Below are positions 40,859-63,038 of a stretch of 64,000 nt of DNA, piece after piece; position 1 is the stretch's first letter, and each line of letters starts with the position of its first letter. The notes under the pieces are model-generated. The model was not told the DNA's origin. It did not search any database and saw only the letters and a program-made list of their open reading frames with translations. Source of the DNA: Azohydromonas caseinilytica (GTDB taxonomy: Bacteria > Pseudomonadota > Gammaproteobacteria > Burkholderiales > Burkholderiaceae_C). The stretch spans positions 1 through 64,000 of the forward strand of contig NZ_JABBFW010000029.1 of assembly GCF_012927045.1 (NCBI RefSeq). Direction: 5' to 3'. The position numbers and the translations under genes were made by a program.

Positions 40859-40995
40859 CGCACGGCACTCCAACCACGGGAGCCGGCAGGCACTGGACCC
40901 GGTTTGGCCCCCCTGAGGCGTTGACTCGATAACGGCCCTACGGTCAAGCCCAAGGTGTGTCGATCTGAAACCCGAGTCGGCAGGGGGCGCCTAAA

Positions 40996-41012: not shown

Positions 41013-41164
41013 AATCAAAGCAGCCGCCCCGGACACCCAGGAGACAAAGGGGCCGCGCCCGGTGCCACGGTGCCGGCGCAGCCGATGGACGCTCGTCGAT
41101 CCAGAACCGGGGCGGAGCCCATCGCCGAGCACTTTCCGCAACCCGTCTGTCACCAGGAGCTCAC

Positions 41165-41536: not shown

Positions 41537-41600
41537 CGCGCCCTTAAGATCCGCTCCCTCGCGCCGGGCCTTTGCCCGGCGCATTCATTTGAAGCGGCCC

Positions 41601-41921: not shown

Positions 41922-41930
41922 CGGGCCGGC

Positions 41931-43025: not shown

Positions 43026-43095
43026 TTCTTCTCCTGCACTGGAAAACCACGAATATCAACGGGCACCGTCTGGATTTCAGGCCGGTTTGGACGGC

Positions 43096-44166: not shown

Positions 44167-44506
44167 GCCGTTCTCCTGGGCCAGGAAATCGCGGGAACCA
44201 GGCGCACGACGAGATTTATCAGCTCAATCCAGGCCAGCACCCCGGCGGAAGCTTAGGCCCGGGCTTCGGCAGCAGTGCCGAATATCCCTGTTCAACAGCA
44301 TTGGGGTATCCAGATTGTTTCAATGTCCTCAAAACCCGGTTGCCGACCGCCCGCCTTTCGGGGAGGAGCATGGCAAGGAAAGCGGCTCGATGGCTGCCTG
44401 GCCGCCGTGCCGCGCGGCTGGAAGCGCCACCGGGCACGGCGCGCCCATAAGGGAATGCGAAATATCCCTCGCCGCGAAGCGCACACGAAAATTGGAATGC
44501 CGGCGG
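44167..44506. other. 340-base gap without a supportable gene
   Basis: Open frames on both strands here look like shadows. Near 44498-44512 GCCGGCGGTTACCGGC forms a short inverted repeat just past the stop of the peptidase gene at 44507; it may act as a weak terminator for that minus-strand gene. Nothing else stands out. Confidence 0.4.
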
Positions 44507-45490: not shown

Positions 45491-45502
45491 GGCCGACTCC
45501 TG

Positions 45503-46243: not shown

Positions 46244-46451
46244 TGAAGGCTCTCCCCTGTCAGGCGTTGCATGAGCCGGATCGCCCGTCACGGCGACAGG
46301 AACAAGGGAGCAGGGGCCACGTCCCGCACTGTGGTCCCGCGTCCGAAAGCGAAGCACTGACCAAAGGCCCATTGCATCCACGGCCGATGCCTGCCGGGCG
46401 CGGCCGCTCAAGGGTGAAGCCGCGTCCCGGCGACGGCCTTGCGGCGCCTCC

Positions 46452-47813
46452 TCAGCGCGGCGCCGACGCCGCCTCCGCCGCCCTGTCGCAGTCCGGCGCT
46501 TCCTCGCTCCCGCGCGGGCTGTCCTTTAGCCGCGCCAGGATGCGCGTCCCGGAGCGTCCGGTTTCCGGCAGCTCCAGCCGGAATTCCTCGGCGCGGATCG
46601 CCGCGGCGGTGCGCGGGCCGTCGCGGCCGTCGGGCGTGACCTCGCAGTGGCCGCGCCGGCGCAGCAGCGCCTGCAGCTCCTTCAGGTCGCGGCGCGAGAG
46701 TATCGGGTCGTCGGTGGGCCAGGCTCTCCTCGGCGGCGGCGCGCCGCGCAGCGCGTCGGCCAGCAGCCCGATGGCCAGGCCGTAGGCATCGGCGCGGTTG
46801 TAGCGCCAGATCGCCTGGTAGTTGGGCGTCACCAGCCAGGCCGGCCCGTCACTCCCGACGGGCATCAGCAGCGCGGTGCGCAGCTCGCCGCTCCAGCCCG
46901 GCGCCGCGCCCTCGCCCAGCAGGGGCCGGCCGTCGGCACGCTTGACGCCGTCCGCCGCCCACTGCGCCAGCGTGCGGCAGTTGCCCGCCGGCTGCCCGCG
47001 CTCCAGGCAGCGGTGGCCGGACTCCGGGGCGTTGAAGCGCTCCAGCGCCGCGTCGGGCAGCGTCACTTCCACGCCCCAGGGCAGGCCGCTGCGCCAGCCC
47101 AGCCCGGCCAGGTAGCGCGCGGTGGTGGCCAGCGCGTCGGGCGTGCTGCCCACGATGTCCACCGTGCGCGCGCCCTCGACGGCGCCGTCCATGTAAGCCA
47201 CGAAGGTGGCCGGCATGAACTGCGTCTGCCCGAAGGCGCCGGCCCAGGAGCCCAGGAAGGTGTCGGGCTGCACGTGCCCTTCCTGCAGCAGCCACAACGC
47301 GGCGAAGAAGTTGCGCCGCCGCTCGGCGCTGTCTAGGTTCAGGCAGGCGCGGCTCAGCGTGGCGTCCACCACCGGGTAGCGGCCCTGCACGCGGCCGTAG
47401 TCGGTCTCGATGCCGAACACCGCCACGTTGGTGGCCGCGTCCACGCCGTGGCGCTTGTCGATGGCGGCCAGCGCCGCGGCTTCGCGCGCCAGCAGCGCGC
47501 GGCCGTCGGCGATGCGCTCCTCGTCCACGCGCCGCATCAGGTAGTCCCAGATCGGCACCTGGAACTCCGGCTGCGCGGCGGTGGCGGCCTCGATCACCGG
47601 GCGCAGGTCCTGCGCCGCGCGCGTGTAGCGCTCGAAGGTGCGCACGCTCACCTGCGGCTGCTGTTCGGGCAGCCGCTTGCGCAGCGCCGCGATGCACGGC
47701 GCCAGGCCGTTGTCGGCGCTCTCAGGCTCGGCCTCGGGCTCGGCCGCCACGGCGCCCAGGGCCGCGAGGCTCAGCGTCGCCAGCAGGGCGGCGCGTCCGG
47801 GAAAGGATTTCAA
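46452..47813 (-). CDS. MltB-type lytic murein transglycosylase with a C-terminal peptidoglycan-binding domain
   Basis: A 453-residue periplasmic enzyme. The signal peptide is FPGRAALLATLSLAALGAVA. The SLT_2 domain has the catalytic Glu136 in VAVFGIETDYGR, followed by the substrate-site FGQTQFMPATFVAYMDGA. Toward the C-terminus SRRDLKELQALLRRRGHCEV is a PG_binding_1 helix. It cleaves murein to anhydro-muropeptides. I prefer a TTG start at 47813, where AAGGAG sits at proper spacing; an ATG at 47852 would add 13 residues. The gene is divergent from tssJ, 142 bases away, so it could prepare the wall for the T6SS. Confidence 0.85.
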   Translation of the reverse strand: MKSFPGRAALLATLSLAALGAVAAEPEAEPESADNGLAPCIAALRKRLPEQQPQVSVRTFERYTRAAQDLRPVIEAATAAQPEFQVPIWDYLMRRVDEERIADGRALLAREAAALAAIDKRHGVDAATNVAVFGIETDYGRVQGRYPVVDATLSRACLNLDSAERRRNFFAALWLLQEGHVQPDTFLGSWAGAFGQTQFMPATFVAYMDGAVEGARTVDIVGSTPDALATTARYLAGLGWRSGLPWGVEVTLPDAALERFNAPESGHRCLERGQPAGNCRTLAQWAADGVKRADGRPLLGEGAAPGWSGELRTALLMPVGSDGPAWLVTPNYQAIWRYNRADAYGLAIGLLADALRGAPPPRRAWPTDDPILSRRDLKELQALLRRRGHCEVTPDGRDGPRTAAAIRAEEFRLELPETGRSGTRILARLKDSPRGSEEAPDCDRAAEAASAPR

Positions 47814-47955
47814 AGGGGGCTCCTTCTCAAGGCGGGTGATGGATGAAGTCATGGCTCGCGAGCCAGGGGACAAGGATCGTGCAAGCACGCCGGTGACCTT
47901 GGTCACGAGGCAGGCCGCGCGCGGCTGCCTATGCTGGGCCGCACAGGAGGTCCGC

Positions 47956-48462
47956 ATGGTGTCCAACGGCGTCGCTCCGGTCGTGGCGGTGAGTGTGGCC
48001 CTGGCGCTGGGCGGTTGCGCCGGCAAGCCCCCTCCGCCGCCGCCGCCCACGCTGGTCGTGGGCAGCATCGAGGCCGCGGCCGACCTCAATCCGAGCATCT
48101 CGCGGCGGCCCTCGCCGCTGCTGGTGCGCGTCTACGAGCTGAAGTCGGCCACGGCCTTCAACAACGCCGATTTCGTCTCGCTCTACCAGCGCGACCAGGC
48201 CGAGCTGGGTGCGGACCTCGTCGCGCGCGAGGAGTTCATGCTCGCGCCCGGCAGCTCGCGCCCCATCGAGCGCACGCTGGCGCCGGAGGTGCGCTTCATC
48301 GGCGTGCTGGGCGCCTTCCGCGACCTGGAGCACGCCACCTGGCGCAGCGTGCTGCCGGTGGAGCCCAACCGCACGCAGCAGGTGCGCATCCAGGCCCAGG
48401 GCCTGCGCCTGGCGGCCACCGTGCAGGTGCAGCCGCCGCAGCCGCAGGGGAAGAAGCGATGA
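47956..48462 (+). CDS. tssJ: T6SS outer-membrane lipoprotein TssJ
   Basis: A 168-residue outer-membrane lipoprotein. The lipobox LGGC ends with Cys21, followed by a Pro-rich spacer. The transthyretin-like fold has strands VVGSIEAAADLNPSISRRPS, PLLVRVYELKSATAFNNADF and FIGVLGAFRDLEHATWRSVL, as in TssJ. It anchors the T6SS membrane complex by binding the periplasmic end of TssM. The start at 47956 follows AGGAGG. The next gene tssK begins after 61 bases, so it is the first gene of a tssJKLM run. Confidence 0.9.
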   Translation: MVSNGVAPVVAVSVALALGGCAGKPPPPPPPTLVVGSIEAAADLNPSISRRPSPLLVRVYELKSATAFNNADFVSLYQRDQAELGADLVAREEFMLAPGSSRPIERTLAPEVRFIGVLGAFRDLEHATWRSVLPVEPNRTQQVRIQAQGLRLAATVQVQPPQPQGKKR

Positions 48463-48523
48463 GCCGGGTCCGGCGCCTTGCGGCTCACGGCGGTGCCGCG
48501 GTGGCGTTGGAGCGCGTGCGCCC

Positions 48524-49861
48524 ATGAGCCGCCACAGCCCGGTCGTGTGGTCGCAGGGCATGTTCCTGCTGCCGCACCACTTCCAGCAGCAGGCGCGCCA
48601 TGTCGAGTACCTGGTGGACATGCGCGCCCAGGCCGTGGGCTCCGCCTACGGCTGGGGCTTCTTCGAGCTGGTGCTGGACGAGGCGCTGCTGGCCGTGGGC
48701 CGCGTCGGCGTGGTGCGCGCCAGCGGCGTGCTGCCCGACGGCACGCCGGTGCGCATCCCGCAGACCGACGCACCGCCGCCGCCCCTGGACATCCCGCCCG
48801 ACATGAAGGACGAGCTGGTCTGCCTGGCCGTGCCGCTGGCGCGCGAGGGCGTCAACGAGGTGGATTTCGACGAGTCCGCCTCGCCGCGCCCGGCGCGCTG
48901 GCTGGCGGTGGAGGAACCGCTGCGCGACCACACGCATGCCGAGGACGAGCCCGAGGCGGTGCAGACCGGCGCCTTGCGGCTGCGGCTGCTGCGCGCACGC
49001 GACGCCGCGGCGGGGCATGCGGCGCTGGGCCTGGCGCGCGTGCGCGAGCTGCGCAGCGACCGCCAGGTGGTGCTGGACCGCGGCTACATCGCGCCGCAGA
49101 CGCGGCTGGACGCCACCGCGCAGCTCTCGGCCATGGCCACGCTGCTGCACGGCCTGATGCGCCAGCAGGCGCAGCAGCTGGTGCAGGGCATGGGGCAGCT
49201 CAGCCACGGCGTGTCGGAGATGGCCGGCTTCATGACGCTGCAGTCGCTCAATCGCGCCGAGCCGGTGTTCCGCCAGCTGGCGCTGGCGCCGCAGGTGCAC
49301 CCCTTCCTGCTGCACCAGGCCTGCCTGCAGCTCGCCGGCGATCTCGCAACGCTGTTGAGCCCGGCGCGCCGCCCGCCCGACTACCCGCTGTACCGGCACG
49401 ACGACCTGCAGGGCTCCTTCGCGCCGCTGGTGGAGGAGCTGCGCCGGCTGCTGACGCTGGCGCCGGAGCGCCATGCGCTGCAGATCGAGCTGGTCGAGCG
49501 CACCCACAGCGTGCGCACCGCGCTCATTCCCGACCCGGATCTGGCGCGCAAGGCCGGCTTCGTGCTGGCGGTCAACGCGCAGGTGGCCAGCGAGCAGCTG
49601 CGCCAGCGCTTCCCGGCGCAGTCCACGCTGGGGCCGGCGGACCGCATCCGCGATCTCGTGAACCTGCACCTGCCCGGCGTGCCGCTGCGGCTGCTGCCGG
49701 TGGCGCCGCGCCAGCTGCCCTTCCACGCCGGCTTCCACTACTTCGAGCTGGAGCGCGGCGGCGAGCTGTGGAAGCACATCGAGCGCAGCGGCAGCCTGGC
49801 GCTGCACGTGGCCGGGGACTTCCCCGGGCTGGAGCTGGAGCTGTGGGCGATCCGGCCATGA
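48524..49861 (+). CDS. tssK: T6SS baseplate protein TssK
   Basis: A 445-residue cytoplasmic protein. The N-terminal family signature PVVWSQGMFLLPHHFQQQAR is plain, as are YLVDMRAQAVGSAYGWGFFE and the C-terminal HAGFHYFELERGGELWKHIE. TssK joins the baseplate (TssEFG) to the membrane complex TssJLM as a trimer. The length is typical (about 445). The gene follows tssJ closely and is followed 128 bases later by tssL with a GGAG ribosome binding site. No other baseplate genes are in the window. Confidence 0.95.
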   Translation: MSRHSPVVWSQGMFLLPHHFQQQARHVEYLVDMRAQAVGSAYGWGFFELVLDEALLAVGRVGVVRASGVLPDGTPVRIPQTDAPPPPLDIPPDMKDELVCLAVPLAREGVNEVDFDESASPRPARWLAVEEPLRDHTHAEDEPEAVQTGALRLRLLRARDAAAGHAALGLARVRELRSDRQVVLDRGYIAPQTRLDATAQLSAMATLLHGLMRQQAQQLVQGMGQLSHGVSEMAGFMTLQSLNRAEPVFRQLALAPQVHPFLLHQACLQLAGDLATLLSPARRPPDYPLYRHDDLQGSFAPLVEELRRLLTLAPERHALQIELVERTHSVRTALIPDPDLARKAGFVLAVNAQVASEQLRQRFPAQSTLGPADRIRDLVNLHLPGVPLRLLPVAPRQLPFHAGFHYFELERGGELWKHIERSGSLALHVAGDFPGLELELWAIRP

Positions 49862-49989
49862 GGGGGCGCAGCGCGCTACGCAGAGGCTTGCCGGACCTGC
49901 GTCGCGAGCCGAGCCGCTTCGCGCGTCCCCTCGTCGCTTCCGCACAGCGGTAGCCCCAGCCTGCGCCCTACGTCGATCGGAGCGACCCC

Positions 49990-51333
49990 ATGACCGACCG
50001 CGCCGCCTTCACCGACCCCTTCGCCGCCGGCGACGAGCAGCCGACCTTCATCCGGCCGAACCCGGGCGGACGCGGCGCGCCGCCGCGTCCGACGCCCTCG
50101 CCAGCCGACGGTGCCGCGCCGGAGGCCGCCGAGGCCGCGCTGCCCGACAGCGGCCTGAACCCGCTGGTGGCGCTGGCCAACCCGCTGCTGCTGGCGGTGC
50201 CCCAATTGCGCGCCACGCGCCGCATGGATGACCCGGCGGCGCTGCGCGCGTCGCTGGCCCAGGGCGTGCGCGACTTCGCCACCCGCGCCGCGTCCGCCGG
50301 CGTGCCGGCCGAGCGCGTGATGGCCGCGCGCTACGTGCTGTGCACCATGCTCGACGAGGCCGCGGCCGACACGCCCTGGGGCGGCAGCGGCGCGTGGGCA
50401 GGCCAGAGCCTGCTGGCGCTGTTCCACAACGAGGTGCAGGGCGGCGAGAAGGTGTTCCAGCTCATGGCGCGGCTGGCCGAGAAGCCCGCCGAGCACCGCG
50501 ACCTGCTGGAGCTCATCTACTGCGCCCTGGCGCTGGGCTTCGAAGGCCGCTACCGCCTCATTCCCAACGGCCGCGCCCAGTTGGAGGCGGTGCGCGACAA
50601 GCTGGCGCAGATCCTGCGCCGCGAGCGCGGCGACTACCCGGCGCCGCTGGCGCAGCACTGGCAGGTGCAGGCCGCGCCGCGCCGCGCGCTGCACAGCAGC
50701 CTGCCGCTGGCCGCCGCGGCGGCCGTGGCGGCGCTGGCGCTGGCCGGCACCTACCTGGGCCTGTCGGCCTCGCTGGGCCGGCGCTCGGACGCGGTCTTTG
50801 CCGACATCCAGCGCCTGCGCCTGTCGCCGCCCGCGCTGGCGCTGCCCGCCGTGGCGGCCCCGGCGGCGCCGCCCCCCGTGCGCCCCGCCGCGCCGCCGCG
50901 GCTGGCGGGCTTCCTGCAGCCGGAAATCCAGGCCGGGCTGGTGGCGGTGCGCGACGACGTGGACCGCAGCATCGTGACGCTGCGCGGCGACGGCCTGTTC
51001 CCGCCCGGCAGCGCCACGCCCGCCGCGGCGCGCGAGGCCCTGCTGCAGCGCATCGGCGACGCGCTGGCGCAGGCGGGCGGCGCGGTGCTGGTCACCGGCC
51101 ACACCGACAGCGAGCCGATCCGCACTGCGCGCTTCCCTTCCAACTGGCACCTGTCCGAGGCGCGGGCGCAGGCCGTGCGCGAGCGCCTGATCGCGCGCGG
51201 CGTGCCGGCCGGGCGCGTGCGCGCCGAAGGGCGCGCCGCCGGCGAGCCGGTGGCGCCCAATGACTCGGACATCAACCGCGCACGCAACCGCCGGGTGGAG
51301 ATCACGCTGTTCGTGCCGGGCGGCAAGGGGTGA
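49990..51333 (+). CDS. tssL: T6SS inner-membrane protein TssL with C-terminal OmpA-like domain
   Basis: A 447-residue IcmH/DotU-type protein. Residues about 50-225 are the cytoplasmic DotU domain (PLVALANPLLLAVPQLRATR; ARYVLCTMLDEAAADTPWGG). One helix at about 235-258 (LAAAAAVAALALAGTYLGLS) follows. The periplasmic C-terminal region (from about 310) is an OmpA-like peptidoglycan-binding domain, with VTGHTDSEPIRT, SNWHLSEARAQAV and ARNRRVEITLF. This extended form binds the cell wall directly. It interacts with TssM and TssK. Three bases separate it from tssM. Confidence 0.95.
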   Translation: MTDRAAFTDPFAAGDEQPTFIRPNPGGRGAPPRPTPSPADGAAPEAAEAALPDSGLNPLVALANPLLLAVPQLRATRRMDDPAALRASLAQGVRDFATRAASAGVPAERVMAARYVLCTMLDEAAADTPWGGSGAWAGQSLLALFHNEVQGGEKVFQLMARLAEKPAEHRDLLELIYCALALGFEGRYRLIPNGRAQLEAVRDKLAQILRRERGDYPAPLAQHWQVQAAPRRALHSSLPLAAAAAVAALALAGTYLGLSASLGRRSDAVFADIQRLRLSPPALALPAVAAPAAPPPVRPAAPPRLAGFLQPEIQAGLVAVRDDVDRSIVTLRGDGLFPPGSATPAAAREALLQRIGDALAQAGGAVLVTGHTDSEPIRTARFPSNWHLSEARAQAVRERLIARGVPAGRVRAEGRAAGEPVAPNDSDINRARNRRVEITLFVPGGKG

Positions 51334-51336
51334 GAC

Positions 51337-54300
51337 ATGTTCAGGAAGCTGCTGGGCCTGGTCTTCAACCGCTGGGTGCTGCTGGCGGTGCTGCTGCTGG
51401 CGGCGGCACTGGTGCTGTGGATCGTCGGGCCGCTGCTGGCCATCGGCGAGCACCGACCGCTGGAAACCGAGCGCGAGCGCTGGATCGCCATCGCCGCCCT
51501 GGCCGGCGCCACGGCGCTGATGCTGGCCTGGAAGGCCTGGCGCGCGCGCCGGGGCAACCAGGCCGTGGTCGATCAGCTGCTGGCCGCGCCGCCCACGCCG
51601 GCCGAGGTGGAAAGCCCCGACCTCGCCGCCGTGCGCGAGCGCTTCGAGCGCGCGCTGCTGACGCTGCGCCGCGCGCGCTTCGGCGCCGCCGGGCTGCTCT
51701 CGGGCTGGGCCGCGCGCCTGAACGGACGCTACCTCTACGAGCTGCCCTGGTACCTCATCATCGGCGCGCCGGGCTCGGGCAAGACCACGGCGCTGCGCAA
51801 TTGCGGGCTCAACTTCCCGCTGGCGCAGGCCATGGGGCAGGACGTGCTGCGCGGCGTGGGTGGCACGCGCAACTGCGACTGGTGGTTCACCGACCGCGCC
51901 GTGCTCATCGACACCGCCGGGCGCTTCACCACGCAGGACAGCGACCGCGACAACGACCGCACCACCTGGGGCGGCTTTCTCAAGCTGCTCAAGCAGGCGC
52001 GCCCGCGCCAGCCGCTCAACGGCGTGCTGGTGACGGTGTCGGTGCCGGACCTGCTCACGCGCGGCGCCATCGACCGCGCCGAGTACGCCGCGCATGTGCG
52101 CCAGCGCGTGCAGGAGCTGCACGAGCAGCTGGGCCTGCGGCTGCCGATCTACCTGCTGGTCACCAAGTGCGACCTGATGGCCGGCTTCGCCGAAACCTTC
52201 AGCCACCTGGGCAAGGCCGAGCGCGCCGAGCCCTGGGGCTTCACCTTCGATCTCGCAGGCAAGACGCAGGAGCACCTGCAGCGCTTCGGGCCGGAGCTCG
52301 ACGCGCTGCAGCAGCGGCTCGGCGACGGGCTGATCGACCGGCTGCAGGACGAGCGCGACGCCGCCCGGCGCGCGCGCGTCTACGGCTTCCCCGGGCAGTT
52401 CGCGGCGCTGCGCGCGCCGCTGCAGGAGTTCGTCGACGCCGCCTTCTCGCCCTCGCCCTACGAGGTCGAGCCGCTGCTGCGCGGCGTGTACTTCGTCAGC
52501 GGCACGCAGGAGGGCACGCCCATCGACCGCGTGCTCGCCGCCGTGGCACGCAGCCACCGGCTGGAGCACGCCATTCCCGCGCCGCAGGCGGGCACGGGCA
52601 AGAGCTTCTTCCTGTCCCGGCTGATCACCGAGGTGGTGTTCGCCGAAAGCGGCGTGGCCGGCACCAACCTGGCCTGGGAGCGGCGCCGCGGCCTGCTCAT
52701 GCTGGGCGGCTACGCCGCGCTGGCGCTGGTGACCACGCTGGCGCTGGCGGCCTGGATCAGCAGTTACGCCGGCAACCGCCGCTACCTGGACGGCGTGGCC
52801 GCGCGCGTGGACGCGGTACAGCGCCTGGTGCAGGGCACGCCCAACCGGGCCTCGGCCGAGCTGCAGCCCATCGTCCCGGCGCTGGAGGCCACGCGCGCCC
52901 TGGCCCGCGCCGGGCAGGACGACGAGGTGCCCTGGCTGGGCTTCGGACTGGATCAGGGCCGCAAAATGGACAGCGCCGCGCAGGCCGCCTACGAGCGCAT
53001 GCTGGTGGACGCGCTGCTGCCGCGGCTGGCGCTGCGCATCGAGGCCCAGCTGCGCGGCACGAGCAGTGCGCCGGAGGCCGACTACGAGGCGCTCAAGGCC
53101 TACCTGATGCTGTACGACCCGACGCACTACGACGCCGCGGCGCTCAAGCGTCATGTCGAGGCGCTGTGGGACGCGGACTTCGGCCGCTCGCTCGACGCCG
53201 AGCGGCGCGCGGCGCTGTCGGTGCACCTGGAGGCGCTGCTGGCGCAGCGCATGGTGGTGTCGCCGCTGCCCCGCGACGACGCGCTGGTGCAGCAGGCGCG
53301 GCTGCGGCTGGCGGCGGTGCCGCTGCCGCAGCGCGTGTACCGGCGGCTGCGGCACCAGGGGCTGGGGCGCGAGTTCCCGGAGTTCACCATTGCGCGCGCC
53401 GCCGGCGCCAATGCCGCGCTGGTGTTCCAGCGCGCCAGCGGCGCACCGCTGACACGCGGCGTGCCAGGGCTGTTCTCCTACGACGGCTACCACCGCGGCT
53501 TCCAGAAGCAGGTGGCCCAGGTGGCCGAGGAGCTGGCCCAGGAGCAGGGTTGGGTGCTGGGCGTCGAGGAGGCCGCGGGCGGCGCAGCAGCACGGCTGAC
53601 GGCCACCCCGGCGCTGGTGGACGAGGTGCGGCGCCTGTACCTGAACGATTACGCCTCGGCCTGGGAAGGCTTCATTGCCGACATCCGGCTGCAGCCGCCG
53701 GGCAACCTAACGCAGGCCATCCAGCTGGCGCGGCTGCTGTCGGTGCCCGATAACCCGCTGGCGCCGCTGCTCAGGGCCATCTCGCGCGAGACCACACTGG
53801 GCGCGCCGGACAAGGCGGCCGGCGTGATCGGCAAGACCGGGCAACAGGCGGGGCAGACCGTGGACAAGCTGCGCGGCCAGATCCTGGGCACGCTCACCGG
53901 CGGCACCACGCCAGCGAGCGACGGGCCGGGGCTGGAGGTGCAGCTGGTGGACGAGCGCTTTGCCGGGCTGCGCCAGCTCGTCACCGCGCCGGAGGGTGGC
54001 AAGGCGCCGCTGGAGGACACGATGGGCCTGATCGCGGAGCTGCACCTGCAGCTCACCGCCGCCGACATGGCGCTCAAGGGCGGCTCCGCCCCGCCGCCCT
54101 CGCCCGTGCCCGCCAAGGCGCGGGCCGAGGCCGCGCGCATGCCGCAGCCGCTGCGCGGGCTGCTCGACACCCTGGCCGCGAGCAGCGCGCAAGTCTCGCA
54201 GACCGTGCTGCGCCAGAGCCTGTCCAACGAGGTGCGCTCGGCGGTGGGCGAGTTCTGCCGTCAGGCCGTGGCCGGGCGCTACCCGCTGGACCGCCATGCC

Positions 54301-54915
54301 GCGCGCGACGTGACGCAGGCCGACTTCGCGCTGCTGTTCGGCCCGGGCGGCAAGATCGACCAGCTGTTCCAGCAGAAGCTCGCCGCCTACGTGGACACCA
54401 CCACGCGGCCCTGGCGCTTCCGCGCCGTGGAAGGCACGCCGCTGGGTGGCGACAGCGGCTCGCTGCCGCAGTTCCAGCGCGCCGCCGCGATCCGCGAGAC
54501 TTTCTTTGCCGGCGGGCCCACACCCTCGCTGCGGCTGGAGTTCAAGCCGCTGGAGATGGACCCGGGCATCTCGCAGTTCACGCTGGACGTGGACGGCCAG
54601 CTGGTGCGCTATGCCCACGGCCCGGCCATCCCGATGGCGGTGCAGTGGCCCGGGCCGCGCGGCAGCTCCCAGGTGCGGGTGCAGCTCATGCCGCCCAGCC
54701 CCACCGGCGCCTCGGGACTGGTCAAGGAAGGGCCGTGGGCGCTGTTCCGGCTCTTCGACAGCGTGCGCATCGACCCGGGCGGCGCGCCCGAGCGCTTCAA
54801 GGCGACTTTCGACATCGACGGCCGCCGCGCGGTGTTCGAGGTCACGGCCAGCAGCGTGCGCAACCCGTTCCGGCTGAACGAGCTGGCGGAGTTTTCCTGT
54901 CCGGCGGGGCTGTGA
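51337..54915 (+). CDS. tssM: T6SS inner-membrane protein TssM (IcmF)
   Basis: An 1192-residue protein spanning the inner membrane with three segments (residues about 13-35, 49-67, 455-475). The cytoplasmic domain has an intact Walker A, GAPGSGKT (143-150), and a Walker-B-like VLIDTAGRFTTQ. The long periplasmic part includes the TssM-C region and ends with a beta-rich domain that contacts TssJ. The length is normal. It follows tssL after three bases. A piece of its 3' end, 54790-54830, recurs at 57750-57790 downstream of the patatin gene. Confidence 0.95.
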   Translation: MFRKLLGLVFNRWVLLAVLLLAAALVLWIVGPLLAIGEHRPLETERERWIAIAALAGATALMLAWKAWRARRGNQAVVDQLLAAPPTPAEVESPDLAAVRERFERALLTLRRARFGAAGLLSGWAARLNGRYLYELPWYLIIGAPGSGKTTALRNCGLNFPLAQAMGQDVLRGVGGTRNCDWWFTDRAVLIDTAGRFTTQDSDRDNDRTTWGGFLKLLKQARPRQPLNGVLVTVSVPDLLTRGAIDRAEYAAHVRQRVQELHEQLGLRLPIYLLVTKCDLMAGFAETFSHLGKAERAEPWGFTFDLAGKTQEHLQRFGPELDALQQRLGDGLIDRLQDERDAARRARVYGFPGQFAALRAPLQEFVDAAFSPSPYEVEPLLRGVYFVSGTQEGTPIDRVLAAVARSHRLEHAIPAPQAGTGKSFFLSRLITEVVFAESGVAGTNLAWERRRGLLMLGGYAALALVTTLALAAWISSYAGNRRYLDGVAARVDAVQRLVQGTPNRASAELQPIVPALEATRALARAGQDDEVPWLGFGLDQGRKMDSAAQAAYERMLVDALLPRLALRIEAQLRGTSSAPEADYEALKAYLMLYDPTHYDAAALKRHVEALWDADFGRSLDAERRAALSVHLEALLAQRMVVSPLPRDDALVQQARLRLAAVPLPQRVYRRLRHQGLGREFPEFTIARAAGANAALVFQRASGAPLTRGVPGLFSYDGYHRGFQKQVAQVAEELAQEQGWVLGVEEAAGGAAARLTATPALVDEVRRLYLNDYASAWEGFIADIRLQPPGNLTQAIQLARLLSVPDNPLAPLLRAISRETTLGAPDKAAGVIGKTGQQAGQTVDKLRGQILGTLTGGTTPASDGPGLEVQLVDERFAGLRQLVTAPEGGKAPLEDTMGLIAELHLQLTAADMALKGGSAPPPSPVPAKARAEAARMPQPLRGLLDTLAASSAQVSQTVLRQSLSNEVRSAVGEFCRQAVAGRYPLDRHAARDVTQADFALLFGPGGKIDQLFQQKLAAYVDTTTRPWRFRAVEGTPLGGDSGSLPQFQRAAAIRETFFAGGPTPSLRLEFKPLEMDPGISQFTLDVDGQLVRYAHGPAIPMAVQWPGPRGSSQVRVQLMPPSPTGASGLVKEGPWALFRLFDSVRIDPGGAPERFKATFDIDGRRAVFEVTASSVRNPFRLNELAEFSCPAGL
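54790..54830 (+). repeat. 41-bp direct repeat, copy 1 (within the tssM 3' end)
   Basis: The 41 bases starting GAGCGCTTCAAGGCGACTTT in the tssM coding region are repeated at 57750-57790 with a single mismatch (54802 G versus 57762 C). In copy 1 it codes for ERFKATFDIDGRRA, part of the tssM C-terminal domain. The two copies bracket the tssM 3' end and the patatin gene, a span of about 2.96 kb. Confidence 0.9.
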
Positions 54916-55068
54916 GCTCGCACATCGCGTGGGTGCCGCCGCCCCGGGCACGGCGCGATCGTGCCGCCACGTCGGCCTCCAGTGCCGGCGAGCGGTCCGA
55001 GGCGCCGGCCCAGTGTTGGAATCGACGCTGAACCGCGGCACCGTCCGCCCATCGCCGAGGAGAAAAAG

Positions 55069-57705
55069 ATGACAAATGACCTTGAGCAGTCAGTCCAGCA
55101 GGCCCGCGACATCATCGCGGGACGGGACGTCTCGCCATCCGACGCCTTGTCGCTGGCGCAACGGTTGATGAAAGGCCGGCGCATCGGCCTGGCCCGCAAG
55201 GTGCTCGCCCGGGCCGCCGCGCATGACAGCCTGCGCCAGGACGCCGCGCTGCGGCTGCGCGTGGCGCAGAGGCAGGCCCTGTGCACCTACAAGGACCCGG
55301 ACCTGCAGGAGGAGATCAAGCTCGACGCGGCGCAGAGCATCCTCAGCGAGGTCGAGGACCTGGAAACCACGGTCAACCAGGAAACGCTGGGCCTGGCCGG
55401 CGCGATCTACAAGCGCCGATGGGAGCAGACCGCGCAAGTACGCGAACTCGAAACGGCGCTGACCTACTACTACCGCGGGCTGGAGCAAGGCATCGCCGGC
55501 GATGTGGGCTACACGGCGATCAACGCGGCGTTCGTGCTGGATCAGCTGGCCGACCAGCAACGCATCGCCGGCCAGCCCGAAGCGCTGCAGTCCCTGGCCG
55601 CGCATCGCCAGGCGCTGGCGCGTGGCATCCGGGAGCAGATCGTCGAGATCCTGCCCGGCCTGCCCGCGCAGCCCGGCAAGGCCGAGCTGTCGGGCACCTG
55701 GTGGTACCTCGTGACGCTGGGCGAAGCCTTCTTTGGCCTGGGCCGCTTCGAGGAGGCGCGCCAATGGCTGCTGCGCGCCGCCGCACTCGGCGGCGTGCCC
55801 GACTGGGAGCGCGAGAGCACCGCGCGGCAGCTCGGCGCGCTGCTGCTCATGCGGCAGCGCGCCGGCGGCACACCGGACGAGCCAGCCCACGCGGAGGCGG
55901 TGGCCGTGCTCCGGGAGTTCCTCGGCCAGGACGCCGCCGCGCTGGAGTCGGTGTTGCGCGGCCGGGTGGGCCTGGCACTGTCAGGCGGCGGCTTCCGCGC
56001 CTCGCTCTACCACATCGGCGTGCTGGCCCGGCTGGCCGAGCTCGACCTGCTGCGCCATGTCGAGTACCTGTCCTGCGTGTCGGGTGGCTCGATCATCGGC
56101 GCGCACTACTACCTGGAGGTGCAGCGCCTGCTGCAGAGCAAGAAAGACGAGGAGATCGGCCGCGACGACTACATCAAGATCGTCAAGGACATCGAGCGGG
56201 AGTTCGTGGCCGGTGTCGGCACCAACATCCGCACGCGCATCGCCGCGGAGTGGTGGACCAATCTCAAGCTGATCTTCAAGCCCTCGTACTCCCGCACGCT
56301 GCGCGCGGGCGAGCTCTACGAGGAAAAGATCTTCTCGCGCGTGGCCGACGAGCGCGGCAACGAGCCGCGCCACCTGTCCGACCTGATGTTCACCCCCAAG
56401 GGGGCCGACGACGATTTCTCGCCCAAGGACTGCAACTGGCGGCGCTCGGCCAAGGTACCGATCCTGGTGCTGAACGCGACCTCGCTCAACACCGGCCACA
56501 ACTGGCAGTTCACGGCCAGCTGGATGGGCGAGCCGCCGGCGGGCATCAACGCCGAGGTGGATGCCAACTACCGGCTGCGCCGCATGTACCTGGGAGATGC
56601 GCCCGAGGCGTACCGGCAGATCCGGCTGGGCCATGCCGTGGCGGCCTCGTCCTGCGTGCCCGGCATTTTCGAGCCCTTGTCGCTGCCCGACCTCTACGAG
56701 CGCATGCCTGGCGAGAAGCGCTCGGCAGTGCGTCCGCTGGTGCGGCTGGTCGATGGCGGGGTGTTCGACAACCAGGGCACCGCGGCGCTGCTGGAACAGG
56801 GCTGCTCGGTGCTGCTGGTCAGCGACGCCAGCGGCCAGATGGACGATTGCGACTTTCCCTCCAACGGGCTGCTGGGCGTGCCGCTGCGCGCCAACAGCAT
56901 CCTGCAGGCGCGCGTGCGCGTGAGCCAGTTCGAGGAGCTGGCCAGCCGCCGCCGCGGCGGGCTGCTCAAGGGGCTGATGTTCGTCCATCTCAAGCAGGGC
57001 CTGGACAACCAGCCCGTGGACTGGATCGGCTGCACCGACCCCTCGCCCACGCCCGTGGAGATGCCCATACTGCCCCACGGCGTGCAGCGGCAGGTGCAGC
57101 GCCGGCTCGCCGCCATCCGCACCGACCTGGACTCCTTCTCGGAGATCGAGGCGAAGTCGCTGATGGGCTGCGGCTACCTGAGCACGGTGCATGCCCTGAA
57201 GCGGCCGGTGCTGGGCTTTGCCGCCGGGCCCGGGCAGCGCCACGACTGGGACTTCCTCAAGGTGCTGCCGCTGCTGAGCGACCCGCGCCCCGACCCGGCC
57301 TACCTGCGCCAGCTCGATGTCGCGGGCAAGCTCTTCTTCAAGGTCTGGATGCTGATGCGGCAGCTGCAGCTGCTCGCCGGCGTGCTGGCCATGGCCTTGC
57401 TGGGCATCGCGCTGCGGGTGGCCTGGCTGCAGTGGGACCAGCCGGTGCTGAACCTGAAGGTCAGCGACTTCGCCATCGGCCTGGCATTGGCCGCGCTGTC
57501 GGCGCTGGGGCTGGGCTTCATCGGCAAGGCGCTGCGCTTTCGCAAGACGGCCAACGACGTGCTCATCGGCGTGGGCGCGGCCACCCTGGGCTTCCTGGTC
57601 GCGCGGCTGCACCTGCATGTGCTTGACCGCCTCTTCCTGCACCAGGGCCGGCTGGACCGTCTCAAGGACAACCGCCCGCCCAGCGCGGCACGCCCGGCGC
57701 CTTGA
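55069..57705 (+). CDS. Large patatin-like phospholipase with N-terminal helical domain and C-terminal membrane helices
   Basis: An 878-residue protein. Residues about 1-300 are an all-helical, TPR-like domain resembling the TRAFs-binding type. The patatin domain follows: oxyanion loop SGGGFRA (305-311), nucleophile Ser341 in CVSGGSIIG, and the catalytic Asp in VDGGVFDNQ (Asp562). Two or three helices lie near the C-terminus (residues about 770-860: LLAGVLAMALLGIALRVAWL, GLALAALSALGLGFIGKALR). The start at 55069 has a GAGGAGAA ribosome binding site. It lies 153 bases after tssM on the same strand, and 41-bp direct repeats flank this region. A T6SS effector, a housekeeping lipase or an accessory factor are all possible. 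Confidence 0.85.
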   Translation: MTNDLEQSVQQARDIIAGRDVSPSDALSLAQRLMKGRRIGLARKVLARAAAHDSLRQDAALRLRVAQRQALCTYKDPDLQEEIKLDAAQSILSEVEDLETTVNQETLGLAGAIYKRRWEQTAQVRELETALTYYYRGLEQGIAGDVGYTAINAAFVLDQLADQQRIAGQPEALQSLAAHRQALARGIREQIVEILPGLPAQPGKAELSGTWWYLVTLGEAFFGLGRFEEARQWLLRAAALGGVPDWERESTARQLGALLLMRQRAGGTPDEPAHAEAVAVLREFLGQDAAALESVLRGRVGLALSGGGFRASLYHIGVLARLAELDLLRHVEYLSCVSGGSIIGAHYYLEVQRLLQSKKDEEIGRDDYIKIVKDIEREFVAGVGTNIRTRIAAEWWTNLKLIFKPSYSRTLRAGELYEEKIFSRVADERGNEPRHLSDLMFTPKGADDDFSPKDCNWRRSAKVPILVLNATSLNTGHNWQFTASWMGEPPAGINAEVDANYRLRRMYLGDAPEAYRQIRLGHAVAASSCVPGIFEPLSLPDLYERMPGEKRSAVRPLVRLVDGGVFDNQGTAALLEQGCSVLLVSDASGQMDDCDFPSNGLLGVPLRANSILQARVRVSQFEELASRRRGGLLKGLMFVHLKQGLDNQPVDWIGCTDPSPTPVEMPILPHGVQRQVQRRLAAIRTDLDSFSEIEAKSLMGCGYLSTVHALKRPVLGFAAGPGQRHDWDFLKVLPLLSDPRPDPAYLRQLDVAGKLFFKVWMLMRQLQLLAGVLAMALLGIALRVAWLQWDQPVLNLKVSDFAIGLALAALSALGLGFIGKALRFRKTANDVLIGVGAATLGFLVARLHLHVLDRLFLHQGRLDRLKDNRPPSAARPAP

Positions 57706-57749
57706 GCGGCGGCGGCCCGGTATGCAGGGCTTGCCGCCTGTACCGTGGT

Positions 57750-57790
57750 GAGCGCTTCAAGCCGACTTTCGACATCGACGGCCGCCGCGC
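57750..57790 (+). repeat. 41-bp direct repeat, copy 2 (orphan tssM fragment)
   Basis: A near-identical copy (one mismatch) of tssM bases 54790-54830, lying 45 bases after the patatin stop and 10 bases before the stop of the opposite-strand VOC gene. The only plausible source is tssM, so it is a scar of a rearrangement that placed the patatin gene here. No other tssM sequence adjoins it. Confidence 0.9.
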
Positions 57791-57799
57791 CAGCCTCCC

Positions 57800-58183
57800 T
57801 CACGCCTCGTACAACTCCAGCGGCAACCCGTCCGGATCGGCGAAGAATGTAAAGCGCTTGCCCGTGAACTCGTCGCGCCGCACCGGCTCGACGGCCACGC
57901 CCCGCGCCTCCAGCCGTGCCTTGGCCTGCTCGACGTCTTCGACTGCAAACGCCAAATGCCGCAGCCCGCGCGCTTCCGGGTAGGAAGGGCGCGGCGGCGG
58001 ATCGGGGAAGGAGAACAGCTCGATCTGCGCGCCGTCGGGCAGCGCCAGGTCCAGCTTCCAGGAGCCGCGTGGCGCCCGGTGGTGCTCGCCCAGCACCTTC
58101 AGCCCCAGCACCTCGACGTAAAAACGCTTCGAGGCCTCGTAGTCGGAGCAGATGACGGCGGCGTGGTGGATGCGAAGCAGCAT
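57800..58183 (-). CDS. VOC/glyoxalase-family metalloenzyme
   Basis: A 127-residue VOC-superfamily protein, YaeR/GloA-like. Metal ligands can be seen as His in LLRIHHAAVICSDYE, Glu in IELFSFPD, His in GLRHLAFAVED and Glu in GLPLELYEA. It has a paired beta-alpha-beta3 arrangement. Probably a small lyase, dioxygenase or unknown-function member; the substrate is not apparent. The start at 58183 lies 17 bases downstream of pppA, on the same strand, so it seems to be the last gene of the tagH-pppA operon, although the function has no obvious link to secretion. Confidence 0.85.
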   Translation of the reverse strand: MLLRIHHAAVICSDYEASKRFYVEVLGLKVLGEHHRAPRGSWKLDLALPDGAQIELFSFPDPPPRPSYPEARGLRHLAFAVEDVEQAKARLEARGVAVEPVRRDEFTGKRFTFFADPDGLPLELYEA

Positions 58184-58200
58184 GGCGGGTGGGTGGGAAT

Positions 58201-58962
58201 TCAGGCCAGGGGTTGCGGCAAGTTTCCCACCCACACCCCCACCGCCGTGAAGTTGTCCTGCCCCGGCGCCGCGCGCGCCTCGATGCGCGCGCACATGCCC
58301 TGCAGCCACGCTTCCACGCAGGAGGACTGCGCCAGCGTGTCGGCCAGGTCCTGCGGCTGCAGCGCGCCCCACCAGCCGTCGCTGCACAGCAGGTAGACGT
58401 CGCCCTCCTCCAGCACCGCGGCCGCGGCCGGCGTGTGCGGCTCCACCTCCTCGGGCATGCCCAGCGCGGCCATGAGCTGGTTGCGGCGCGGATGCTCCAG
58501 CGCCTGGCGCTCGGTCAGCAGCCCGGCGTCGCGCAGCTGCTGCACCAGGCTGTCGTCGCGGGTGAGCAGCTCCACGGCGCCGCCGCGCAGGCGGTACAGG
58601 CGCGAGTCGCCCACGTGCGACCACAGCACGCGCCGGTCCGGCGCGTCGAGCCACAGCGCCACCACCGTGGCATGCATGCGCTCCTGGCCCACGGCGCCCT
58701 GCTGCGCCTGCCGCAGCTGCTCATGCGCGTCCGCGACCACGCGCGTCAGGATCGCCGGCTCGAGCGCGGCATCCGGGGCGGACAGCCCGGCCGCGACCGC
58801 CTCCACCACGCAGCGCGCGGCCAGCGCGCCGTCGCGATGGCCACCCGCGCCGTCGGCCAGCACGGCCCAGCGCCGCGCGCCCTCGCCGCCGGTGCGCCAG
58901 TCGTCCTCGTTGCGCTGGCGCGCGCCGCAGCCGCTGCGCCCGGCCATGGCGACCTCACTCAT
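58201..58962 (-). CDS. pppA: T6SS PP2C-type protein phosphatase (PppA/Stp)
   Basis: A 253-residue PP2C Ser/Thr phosphatase. The metal-binding Asp residues occur in RNEDDW, WAVLADGAGGH, the LCSDGWWGAL and APGQDNFTAV segments, all in the standard PP2C order. In T6SS loci the phosphatase reverses PpkA-kinase phosphorylation of FHA proteins, lowering secretion. Its start overlaps the tagH stop by eight bases (58955-58962). A shorter start than the ORF limit at 58971 was chosen since MSEVAMAGRSG fits the family N-terminus. No ppkA kinase gene lies in the window. Confidence 0.85.
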   Translation of the reverse strand: MSEVAMAGRSGCGARQRNEDDWRTGGEGARRWAVLADGAGGHRDGALAARCVVEAVAAGLSAPDAALEPAILTRVVADAHEQLRQAQQGAVGQERMHATVVALWLDAPDRRVLWSHVGDSRLYRLRGGAVELLTRDDSLVQQLRDAGLLTERQALEHPRRNQLMAALGMPEEVEPHTPAAAAVLEEGDVYLLCSDGWWGALQPQDLADTLAQSSCVEAWLQGMCARIEARAAPGQDNFTAVGVWVGNLPQPLA

Positions 58963-60502
58963 GGCTGCCACGTTCCGCCGACCCGGAGCCCGGCCGCGCC
59001 TGCCGCAGCCGCTGCAGCTGCTGCTCGTAGGCCGCCAGGAAGGCCTTGCCGAAGAGCGTGTCGAAGTCCTCCTGCGCCTCGCCGCGGATGGCCTCGAAAT
59101 GCTGCAGGTACAGCTCCCACAGCCGGGCCCGGCGGTTCATGGGCAGCACGCTGTCGAGCATGGAGCGTGCGCCGAGCTTGGCCTCCAGCGCCTGCGGCGC
59201 GAAGCGGCCCAGCACGCCCTCCAGCGCGGCGCGGGTGCCGGCCATGGTGCCGATGGCGTGGCCGACCAGGTCCTGCATGGCGTCGGTCATGGCGGCCGGG
59301 CCGTCCAGGAAGCCGCGCATCGGCGGCTGCAGCAGCTGCTCCAGGGCCGACTGCGCATCGGGCGAGAATTTCAGCGGGTTGTTGTTGCGGGCCTGGATGA
59401 CGGTGACGTCGGCATGCAGCTCCTGCTTGGTGGTGGCGCGCACCGACATCAGCTCCAGCGTGCCCTCCACCGCGTTGCGCAGCAGCTGCCCGGCCGCGCG
59501 CATCGTCTCGGCCGTCGGCCCCTGCGGCAGCTTGGGCCGCACGCCGGCGCCTTCGCAGAAGGCGTCCCACAGCCCGGCCTCGTCCGCGACCGGCCGCGCC
59601 AGGGCCGCCGCGGCGCCGGGCGGTGCCACCGGGGCCGGGATCGGCGTCGGGGTCGGCGCCATGACCGGCACGGCCTTGGGCGGATTGAAGACGGCGTGCA
59701 GCTCCGGCGTGTCGTCGGGCCGCGAGGCCGCGCCGGCCGCGGCGGGCGGCGCGGCGCCGAACAGCACCAGCGGATCGCGGCTCAGCGCCGCCGCGTCCGC
59801 CGTGTCGCGCGTCGGCACGCCGAGCTGGGCCACGAAGTCGCCCAGCGGGTCGTCCCCCGCGCGCAGGTTGAACGCCTCGTCGATGGGGCGCGGCGCGGCA
59901 CCGGGAATGAGGTCGTCGAACAGACCTTCGCCCCTGGGCGCGGCGCCGGCCCCGGCGCCGGCGGGGCGCGGCGGCGCGAAGGGGTCGAAATCGTCGGGCA
60001 GGCGCGGCGCGGGCGCCGCGGCGTCGGCCCGGGATGCCGTGGGCAGCTCCGGCAGGTCGGCAAAGGGATCGCCGGACAGCGCCTGTGGCGGCACGCCGTC
60101 GAGGCGCGGCGGCAGCGGCGTCGGCGTGGCGTCCACGGCGCGCGCGGACCCGGCGGGCAGCAGCGCCGTGGCGTCAACATCGACATCGCCCTCGTCGAGC
60201 ACTTCGAGCAGGTAGCCGCCGATGCGGACCTGGTCGTGGTGCGCCAGCGGCATGGACTGTCCTTGCGCCAGCGCCTGGCCGCGCACGCTGATGGGGTTGG
60301 CACTGCCGACGTTGGTGATGACGAAGCCCGCGGCGTTGCGGCTGATCTGCGCCTGCTGGCGCGAGATGTGGCGCTCCGGGTCGGGCAGCGCCAGCGTGTT
60401 GTGGTCGGAGCGGCCGATGGTGCCCTCGCGCTCGAAGCGCGCCATGATGGGCCGCGACAGCGGCTGATCGTTGAGCGACACGGCGCGCAAGGTGAGGCTC
60501 AT
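58955..60502 (-). CDS. tagH: T6SS-associated FHA-domain protein TagH
   Basis: A 515-residue protein. The FHA domain occupies residues about 20-95 (GTIGRSDHNTLALPDPERHI, then SRQQAQISRNAAGFVITNVG), binding phosphothreonine. A Pro/Ala-rich spacer follows, and the C-terminal TagH domain from about residue 330 includes MRAAGQLLRNAVEGTLELMS and FKARFEAIRGEAQEDF-like helical segments (FEAIRGEAQEDFDTLFGKAF). It is a positive regulator phosphorylated by PpkA and dephosphorylated by PppA. It lies 72 bases after the TIGR02270 gene and overlaps pppA. Regulation by threonine phosphorylation is inferred. Confidence 0.9.
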   Translation of the reverse strand: MSLTLRAVSLNDQPLSRPIMARFEREGTIGRSDHNTLALPDPERHISRQQAQISRNAAGFVITNVGSANPISVRGQALAQGQSMPLAHHDQVRIGGYLLEVLDEGDVDVDATALLPAGSARAVDATPTPLPPRLDGVPPQALSGDPFADLPELPTASRADAAAPAPRLPDDFDPFAPPRPAGAGAGAAPRGEGLFDDLIPGAAPRPIDEAFNLRAGDDPLGDFVAQLGVPTRDTADAAALSRDPLVLFGAAPPAAAGAASRPDDTPELHAVFNPPKAVPVMAPTPTPIPAPVAPPGAAAALARPVADEAGLWDAFCEGAGVRPKLPQGPTAETMRAAGQLLRNAVEGTLELMSVRATTKQELHADVTVIQARNNNPLKFSPDAQSALEQLLQPPMRGFLDGPAAMTDAMQDLVGHAIGTMAGTRAALEGVLGRFAPQALEAKLGARSMLDSVLPMNRRARLWELYLQHFEAIRGEAQEDFDTLFGKAFLAAYEQQLQRLRQARPGSGSAERGSHE

Positions 60503-60574
60503 GGCATCGGTCCCGATGGCAAGGTCGTACCGGCCATGCTCGCCTTCGTTGCCGGCATGCTCAAGCTACGAAAG

Positions 60575-61846
60575 TCATGCCGCCAGCCTGCGCTGCTGCC
60601 GCCAGGCGGGCATGCGGACGTTGAACAGCGCCCGCCCGGGCTCCAGCAGCACCAGGGCGCGCGCCGCGAGCAGGCGCTGGCGCTGCGTGCCCTCGCGCAG
60701 CACGCGCGCGGCCTGCTGCGCCGAGGGCGGCTCGCCCATGAAGACGCGCCGGCCCGGCGCCAGGCTGGAGGCCCGCGCCTCCCACCAGCGCTGCACGCGC
60801 TCGCGGTCGGGCCAGGGCAGGCTCTCGTCCTCGTCAAGGGCCACGTCGTCGTCGCGCGGATCGCCGCTCGGCCCGCCGGCCGGCACGGGCGGACGGCGCT
60901 CCAGGTCCAGGTCCGCCAGGTCGGCGCCGGTGACGAGCGAGAAGGCCTCGCCGGCCAGGCGCGCCAGGGCCGGGTCGTCCATCAGCCCGATGAGCCAGGG
61001 CAGGTGCCGCACATCGCCCAGCACGCCGACGGCGCGCACCAGCCGCCGCCGCAGCGCGGGCGCCTGCCGCGCGCGCTGCGACAGCGCAGCCACCAGCTCC
61101 TGCGCGGCCGCAAACGCCGAGGCCTGCAGCAGCAGGCCCAGCGCCGCCTCGGCCGCGGGCTCCTCACCCTGCGCCAGTGCCGCCAGCCGGCGCAGCGCGG
61201 GGCCACGGTCGCCCAGCAGGCAGGCAGCCCAGGCCGCCTGCGGCCCGACCTCGGCATCGTCCAGCGCGGCCAGCGCGTGCTCCAGCAGATCGGCCCGGCC
61301 CAGGACCGCGGCCGTGCGCAGGGCCTCGGCGCGCAGCACCGGCGCCTCGCCGCGCAGGGCCGCCAGCAGCGGCGCGCCGGGGTCCACACCATGCAGCCGG
61401 CAGGCGGCCAGGCCCAGGGCGCGGCGCGACGCATCAGGTGCCAACAGCAGCGCCTGCACCGTGCCCTGCAGCGAGCCTGCCGACAGCCAGCCCAGAGCGG
61501 ACAGCAGCCCGCGCCGCGCATCCGGTACTTCGGCGGCGACGGCCAGCAGGCGCTCCAGCGCGGGCTGGTCGCGCTCGCCCAGGGCCAGGACCGCGGCGGC
61601 GAACACCGCGCCCGCGCCCGGGCTGGCCAGCGCCTCGGTGCACAGCCGCCGGCCGTACGCTCCGGCCACCACCAGGCCGTCGAGGTGGGCGGCGATGCGA
61701 TCGTCCAGGCGCCGCAGGTGGCGCAGCCGCACATGCGGGGCGCGCACCAGCACCGAGCGCACGTGGCGCAGGTGCGCGCAGTCCTCGGCGTGCTGCTGCA
61801 CGACGGCGGCGACGGGCGGGCGGTCCAGGCCTTGCATCGCGCCCAT
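60575..61846 (-). CDS. TIGR02270-family T6SS-associated protein (HEAT-like repeats)
   Basis: A 423-residue, Leu/Ala-rich, all-helical protein that matches the T6SS-linked TIGR02270 family. Repeated paired helices are seen (for example AEALRTAAVLGRADLLEHAL; AAWAACLLGDRGPALRRLAA), suggesting HEAT-like repeats. The C-terminal domain contains RVFMGEPPSAQQAARVLREG and LRARALVLLEPGRALFNVR-type segments. It is usually encoded beside T6SS genes, but its role is unknown; it may be a scaffold or cargo-related protein. The start at 61846 or 61837 cannot be settled. It is divergent from the LysM lipoprotein gene, 106 bases away. Confidence 0.8.
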   Translation of the reverse strand: MGAMQGLDRPPVAAVVQQHAEDCAHLRHVRSVLVRAPHVRLRHLRRLDDRIAAHLDGLVVAGAYGRRLCTEALASPGAGAVFAAAVLALGERDQPALERLLAVAAEVPDARRGLLSALGWLSAGSLQGTVQALLLAPDASRRALGLAACRLHGVDPGAPLLAALRGEAPVLRAEALRTAAVLGRADLLEHALAALDDAEVGPQAAWAACLLGDRGPALRRLAALAQGEEPAAEAALGLLLQASAFAAAQELVAALSQRARQAPALRRRLVRAVGVLGDVRHLPWLIGLMDDPALARLAGEAFSLVTGADLADLDLERRPPVPAGGPSGDPRDDDVALDEDESLPWPDRERVQRWWEARASSLAPGRRVFMGEPPSAQQAARVLREGTQRQRLLAARALVLLEPGRALFNVRMPAWRQQRRLAA

Positions 61847-61952
61847 GCTGGGCCGCCAGGGCGCCGGGACAAGCGACCAAAGTCACGCGCCAGCCGGACG
61901 TGGAAAGGCGACACTGCAACCAGTCAAGTCACGCCCGTGCCGGGGCCATGCC

Positions 61953-63038
61953 ATGAACAGCAAGCTCAATCTCCAGGTGCAGGCCGGTGTGCTGTGGGCG
62001 GTGGCCGCGGCACTGGGGGGTTGCGCGGCCAATGACCCGGCCGGCAAGCCCGAAGCGTCGGCCGACGCGCCCTCACCCGTTGCGACCACGCCGGCCCCGG
62101 CGCCGCAGCCCGCGGTGTTGCCCGTGCCGGGACCGGCCTCGCCGGCGGCGCAGCAGCAGGCGCAGAAGATGGCATTGGGGGCGGTGAGCACGCTGGAAGC
62201 GGGCCAGGAGGTGCAGGCCCGCGCCGAGCTGCAGCGCGCGCTGGCGCTGGACCCGCAGAACAAGCTCGCGCAGAGCCTGCTGCGCCAGATGAGCGAGCCG
62301 GTGATCACGCCGCGCGAGTCCTTCAGTTACACCGTGCGCCCGGGCGACACGCTCTCCAGCATCGCCGAGCGCTTCATGGGCGACAAGTTCCTGTTCTACG
62401 CGCTGGCGCGCTTCAACGACATCAAGGTGCCGCGCCAGCTCTCCAGCGGCCAGGCGCTGCGCGTGCCGGGCACCGGGCAGCCGGCCGTGGTCGAGCGCGA
62501 GCGCCCGGCGCCACGGGCCCAGGCGCCGGAGCCCGTGCGCAGGCCGCCCACGGCCGTGGCCGAAAAGCCCGCCCCCGTGACCGAGAAGGCCGGCCCCGTG
62601 GCCGAGAAATCCCCGCCGGTGTCCGAAAGACACGTGCCGCCGGCCGAGAAGCCCGCTGCGCCCGTACCGGTGGTTGCGCCGGTGACGGCCCCGCCGGCGC
62701 CTGCGGCCGCGCCGCCCGGGCCCTCGCCGGCCGAGCGCGCGCTGCTCAGCGCCGAGGCGGCGGAGCGGGCAGGCAATGTGGAGAAGGCGATGGCCGAGGT
62801 CCAGCAGGTGTCGGGACTGGAGCCGGGCTCGCCGCTGGCCTCGCGGCAGGTGGCGCTGAAGAAGAAGCTGGTGGGCCGCATGGCCAGCAACGCCCGCGGC
62901 GCCTTCGCCCGCCAGGACCTGGACGGCGCCATCCGCCACTGGGACCGCGTGCTGCAGCTCGACCCGGGCAACGACACCGCGCGGCTGGAGCGGCAGCGGG
63001 CGGTGGCGTTGAAGGAGAAGGTAGGGACGTTGAAGTAA
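61953..63038 (+). CDS. LysM-domain lipoprotein with TPR-like regions
   Basis: A 361-residue lipoprotein. The signal ends at lipobox LGGC with Cys24. Residues about 70-115 form a short TPR-like pair (LEAGQEVQARAELQRALALD), then LysM at about 123-170 (YTVRPGDTLSSIAERFMGD, ARFNDIKVPRQLSSGQALRV) for murein binding. A long Pro/Ala-rich linker with EKP-type repeats follows, and a C-terminal TPR (ARQDLDGAIRHWDRVLQLDP). It may brace the T6SS membrane complex to the wall or help recruit a transglycosylase. The divergent T6SS neighbour genes support the link. The start follows a weak ribosome binding site. Confidence 0.8.
   Translation: MNSKLNLQVQAGVLWAVAAALGGCAANDPAGKPEASADAPSPVATTPAPAPQPAVLPVPGPASPAAQQQAQKMALGAVSTLEAGQEVQARAELQRALALDPQNKLAQSLLRQMSEPVITPRESFSYTVRPGDTLSSIAERFMGDKFLFYALARFNDIKVPRQLSSGQALRVPGTGQPAVVERERPAPRAQAPEPVRRPPTAVAEKPAPVTEKAGPVAEKSPPVSERHVPPAEKPAAPVPVVAPVTAPPAPAAAPPGPSPAERALLSAEAAERAGNVEKAMAEVQQVSGLEPGSPLASRQVALKKKLVGRMASNARGAFARQDLDGAIRHWDRVLQLDPGNDTARLERQRAVALKEKVGTLK

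Follow-up and report, generated by a model that had tools for sequence, protein, structure and literature searches.

A 41-bp tssM fragment as the probable scar of a gene replacement in a T6SS block of Azohydromonas caseinilytica

Background

In Agrobacterium tumefaciens and Pseudomonas aeruginosa, TagF binds Fha and represses the T6SS, as described in passages of PMC5995506. Duplication of gene ends is treated in passages of PMC3240628: the E. coli lacZ clones studied there mostly carried a partial gene duplication derived from an integrated plasmid with a shortened gene end, and homology-facilitated illegitimate recombination (HFIR), which generally couples an insertion with a deletion of similar size, is given as rare in E. 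coli. Our literature search returned nothing on partial duplications of tssM.

The locus reported here lies in a 64,000-nucleotide stretch of A. caseinilytica DNA (contig NZ_JABBFW010000029.1, positions 1 to 64,000), which was analysed as a whole and is called the window. The order of genes at its T6SS block is tssM, a TPR-S/patatin gene, a short second copy of a piece of tssM, a convergent VOC gene, a PP2C gene and an FHA gene, with the tssK and tssL genes upstream of tssM. The tssM gene (IcmF; 51337..54915, plus strand; Pfam IcmF-related_N, IcmF-related and IcmF_C) is intact to its stop codon and is the likely source of the fragment. It is followed by a gene of 878 aa for a TPR-S/patatin-like phospholipase (55069..57705, plus strand), by a VOC/glyoxalase-family gene of 127 aa (57800..58183, minus strand; Pfam PF00903) and by a gene for a PppA-like PP2C phosphatase (58201..58971, minus strand; Pfam PF13672), which forms the conserved right border.

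The block of tssK, tssL, tssM, PP2C and FHA genes spans 46452-63038, and no sheath gene was seen among the window proteins scanned; two genes for VipB are present in the host genome, on contigs C47 and C3, and at least three of its contigs (C1, C35 and C22) carry tssM. A run of genes at 35820-46411 has a lower third-position GC (0.65-0.82 in all but one), and five of the eight genes scanned in it have no Pfam match.

Results

A preliminary description of this DNA claimed that bases 54790-54830 recur at 57750-57790 with one mismatch, and the repeat search confirms it: the two sites form a direct repeat of 41 nt, identical at 40 positions, with a start-to-start spacing of 2960. No direct repeat in the window scores higher than this pair, at 37; the runner-up reaches 20. 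When up to three mismatches are allowed, the 41-bp pattern is found at two sites only in the window, at the same two only across the 6.65-Mb host genome, with no third copy, and not once in 100 dinucleotide shuffles; a chance origin is ruled out by the genome-wide pattern search, the shuffles and the repeat ranking taken together. Of 33 further loci with a length of at least 9 kb, 5 hold a direct repeat scoring 37 or more (counting repeats of unspecified kinds), so repeats of this strength do occur elsewhere; the nine T6SS loci in this set have none, their best scoring 26. An exact search of named genome contigs, a set that may not include the window's own genome, gave no match to the 41 bp, and neither did plasmid DNA in megablast mode.

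Copy 1 (54790..54830, plus strand) lies in frame in tssM, encodes ERFKATFDIDGRRA of TssM and terminates 85 bp short of the end of the gene. Copy 2 (57750..57790, plus strand) is an orphan fragment between the patatin stop and the VOC gene, as had been claimed: the patatin stop codon (57703-57705) is followed by 44 bases, by copy 2, by 9 further bases and by the stop codon of the VOC gene (57800-57802). The orphan is oriented as tssM, and its side of the patatin gene is the one on which the old end of tssM, and tagF after it, would be expected. Both its edges are abrupt; the tssM sequence is not continued past 57790, and the DNA then runs into the 3' end of the VOC gene.

The region 54300-58700 was searched as a query in 100 genomes, the window's own included, of which 65 match somewhere. 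The genus search covered four genomes, again with the window's own, at one genome per species. In a species of the same genus (G002), the aligned stretches, at 78-85% identity, extend from 46528 up to the tssM stop at 54915, and the alignment resumes at 58234, inside the PP2C gene; the changed segment is therefore placed at about 54916-58200. Between tssM and the PP2C gene, G002 has a gap of about 970 bases with tagF inside (Pfam TagF_N), the start of tagF overlapping the tssM stop. Two genomes of other genera in the same family (G037 and G049) share the order tssM, tagF, PP2C, FHA, and the tagF-bearing gaps of all three are about 0.8-1.0 kb long. The other two genus relatives give weak matches (66 and 69%) where the tssM protein is 33-40% like that of the window (L052, L053, L070), so the within-genus comparison rests on one genome. 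More broadly, tagF follows tssM in 7/7 relatives' T6SS blocks laid out (L043-L049), with the PP2C and FHA genes next in three of them; one relative with a match to the tssM end, G033 (L014), was left out of these layouts.

Since a different gene, tagF, stands between the same conserved borders in G002, G037 and G049 and is missing here, the segment 54916..58200, about 3.3 kb, replaces it. The segment has no recognisable remnant of tagF (best protein E 1.8); outside tssM, the strongest short DNA match between it and the G002 gap covers 14 nt (E 0.011). Although tagF is absent from the window's block, two such genes exist elsewhere in the host genome, on contigs C1 and C35, beside other tssM genes. 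In windows of 400 bases, GC is mostly 0.65-0.71 in the patatin and VOC genes (one value of 0.76), 0.71-0.77 in tssM and at least 0.74 in the PP2C gene.

It had been proposed to compare the tssM-VOC junction in related strains lacking the patatin gene; in the relatives G002, G037 and G049 the gap between tssM and PP2C contains neither the patatin gene, nor the VOC gene, nor a second tssM fragment. The proposal that an insertion placed the patatin gene after tssM holds in part: the gene is a lineage-specific arrival, missing from the block of the three relatives and lower in GC, but the repeat does not mark the ends of an insertion, and the changed segment includes the VOC gene and lacks tagF. 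Copy 1 lies inside native tssM and the VOC gene lies beyond copy 2, so the repeat does not delimit the replacement. On sequence comparison, the event is a gene replacement in which a piece of tssM stayed behind at a junction within the new segment, and the loss of tagF and the gain of the TPR-S patatin and VOC genes apparently took place later than the split from the sister species.

Copy 2 differs from its own tssM at one position, from that of G002 at 9, of G049 at 10 and of G037 at 13. At the base that distinguishes the two copies, all three relatives have G, as in copy 1; because they agree with copy 1, it is copy 2 and not tssM that changed. Judged from these mismatches, copy 2 most likely derives from the lineage's own tssM after the split from G002, although its likeness to tssM could have come about through later gene conversion.

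The patatin gene has both domains of a TPR-S/patatin-like phospholipase above the Pfam cut-offs (PF20308, 57.5 bits against 27.6; PF01734, 59.8 bits against 27.7); the C-terminal part of the protein looks hydrophobic by eye. We found no literature on TPR-S patatins. The three genus relatives yield no match to the gene at E <= 1e-20; at this level it is matched in 4 of 299 genomes of the family, the own one included, and near full length only in G185, and at 1e-30 in 6 of 399 genomes of the order, again with the own one. The named homologues are scattered over several phyla, with 37-53% identity in the 20 longer of 22 matches. Among 33 patatin loci, several of them with short flanks and some being one place counted two or three times, T6SS genes like those of the window are found only at the window's own.

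The VOC gene has nothing above 34% in the three genus relatives, while relatives at 64-79% identity occur in 35 other genomes of the 299 in the family. No T6SS genes like the window's stand beside the VOC gene in 23 other loci (L063-L066, L077-L095) with flanks of 1.5-6 kb, taken from 21 of these 35 genomes and from G066 and G086 of other families. In ten of the 35, no common flank after the VOC gene that would place the right border was seen by eye.

Discussion

We believe, with a probability of about 0.9, that the orphan has no function and is a scar left when a rearrangement swapped tagF for the patatin and VOC genes. How the scar arose is a matter of much lower confidence. We give about an even chance to a route of two steps, a partial duplication of tssM later trimmed by the deletion that removed tagF, and prefer it to a patch made in one step. 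A segment with the last 126 bp of tssM and then the patatin gene would have been duplicated or integrated beside tssM, the event being either a single crossover or a duplication in tandem, giving the intermediate order tssM, patatin, second tssM 3' end, tagF. A later deletion, coupled to the arrival of the VOC gene, would then have taken away tagF together with the second tssM end, of which only 41 bp were spared. A parallel to this route is given by the partial gene duplications of E. coli in PMC3240628. Against it, the route takes two events, its intermediate was not found, the species being represented by one genome, HFIR is rare in E. coli, and no patatin locus but the window's own, of the 33 compared, has T6SS genes like these.

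Short-patch illegitimate recombination occurs in naturally transformable bacteria, although our search found no literature on it. By a process of this sort, 41 tssM bases could have been copied as filler into the patatin-VOC junction, either in one illegitimate joining or by a template switch at a replication fork. A single event suffices here, and copy 2 has abrupt edges on both sides and sits at the junction of two foreign genes not found together elsewhere; we nevertheless hold this origin, the main rival of the two-step route, to be the less likely one. Because no Ku gene was found in the host genome, Ku-dependent end joining is unlikely; of 14 genomes searched in the same way as controls, one was positive (Bacillus subtilis). 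The preliminary description suggested recombination between tssM-like ends, and this is not supported: a plain crossover in tssM should leave an orphan that reaches the tssM stop and is followed by tagF, whereas the one present ends after 41 bases and the tssM 3' end is not continued. The abrupt edges, the failure to find a recombinase between the copies and the absence of tssM sequence after the orphan are the reasons why both the simple crossover and an att-site model fail. In the latter, which we consider quite improbable, the 41 bp would be attL and attR of an integrative element that entered the tssM 3' end; in its favour is a direct repeat of plausible length near the 3' end of a gene. 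Such an element should bring a recombinase and leave the displaced gene end in place. The patatin gene, however, takes up the space between the copies, and no Pfam match was obtained for the 12 ORFs of 100 aa or more that overlap this space in other frames, nor for a 93-aa ORF at 57702. The right copy is not followed by the displaced tssM end, the changed segment runs beyond that copy to the PP2C gene, and no tRNA was found in the window. Patatin homologues occur in no phage record (E <= 1e-5) and in two plasmid records, both below 40% identity (E <= 1e-20).

A target-site duplication of a transposon was rejected: the repeat is 41 bp long with a mismatch, copy 1 lies inside an intact gene and the interval has no transposase domain; terminal inverted repeats were looked at among the 25 longest of 104 pairs. 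It is similarly improbable that the second copy is an artefact of assembly. The genome is a draft in 98 contigs, but the site is interior to a contig of 68.6 kb, and the one-base difference and the different flanks are unlike a collapsed or mis-joined repeat.

The opposite of a functionless scar would be a copy 2 that acts, either through transcripts reading out of the VOC gene, which would carry 41 nt antisense to tssM, or through a small ORF giving a TssM-like peptide. The orientation suits antisense and no terminator-like site was found in 54700-58300. The predicted antisense duplex (-127.6) is above the average of 200 random tssM pieces (mean -100, sd 7.9), yet it is not unique, the lowest of them reaching -132. 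The frame is open from 57702 to 57983, where a 93-aa ORF with a TTG start overlaps the patatin stop and keeps copy 2 in the tssM frame; such a match of frames is expected by chance in 1 case of 3, and the ORF, which overlaps the VOC gene in antisense and is without a Pfam match, probably does not represent a gene. The hairpin at 57700-57805 is modest (z -2.1), with 7 of 200 shuffles folding equally well. Having no terminator-like site, modest folding and pairing that is above average but not unique, copy 2 gives no sign of acting, and we consider a function very improbable. Still less credible is that the orphan was kept as an antisense patch, by which RNA transcribed from the FHA-PP2C-VOC strand would include a 41-nt complement of the tssM mRNA; if true, this would be an RNA-level return of the negative T6SS control lost with tagF.

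Taken as a scar, copy 2 marks a gene swap in which the gene of the TagF repressor disappeared from a T6SS block and genes for a TPR-S patatin and a VOC protein came in. By analogy, the loss of tagF could have freed the block from TagF control, but two other tagF genes remain in the genome. A scar in a gene replacement is best read as an ordinary kind of trace of DNA rearrangement. It matters mainly for annotators of the cluster, who might take the patatin for a T6SS effector; against this label, the patatin homologues are scattered and have no T6SS linkage in the loci examined.

Conclusions

With short-patch illegitimate recombination and template-switch insertions the locus has in common a short patch that comes from elsewhere and has abrupt edges. 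With the single-crossover or trimmed duplications of gene ends and the HFIR treated in passages of PMC3240628 it shares a partial gene-end duplication and an insertion coupled with a deletion; compared with the system described in those passages, only 41 bp are left here, cut off abruptly at either edge, and no intermediate is seen. The third comparison is with the post-translational regulation of the T6SS by TagF, PppA and Fha, as presented in passages of PMC5995506: the tssM, PP2C and FHA genes are common to both, and the block in the window differs from the system presented there in having the patatin and VOC genes in place of tagF.
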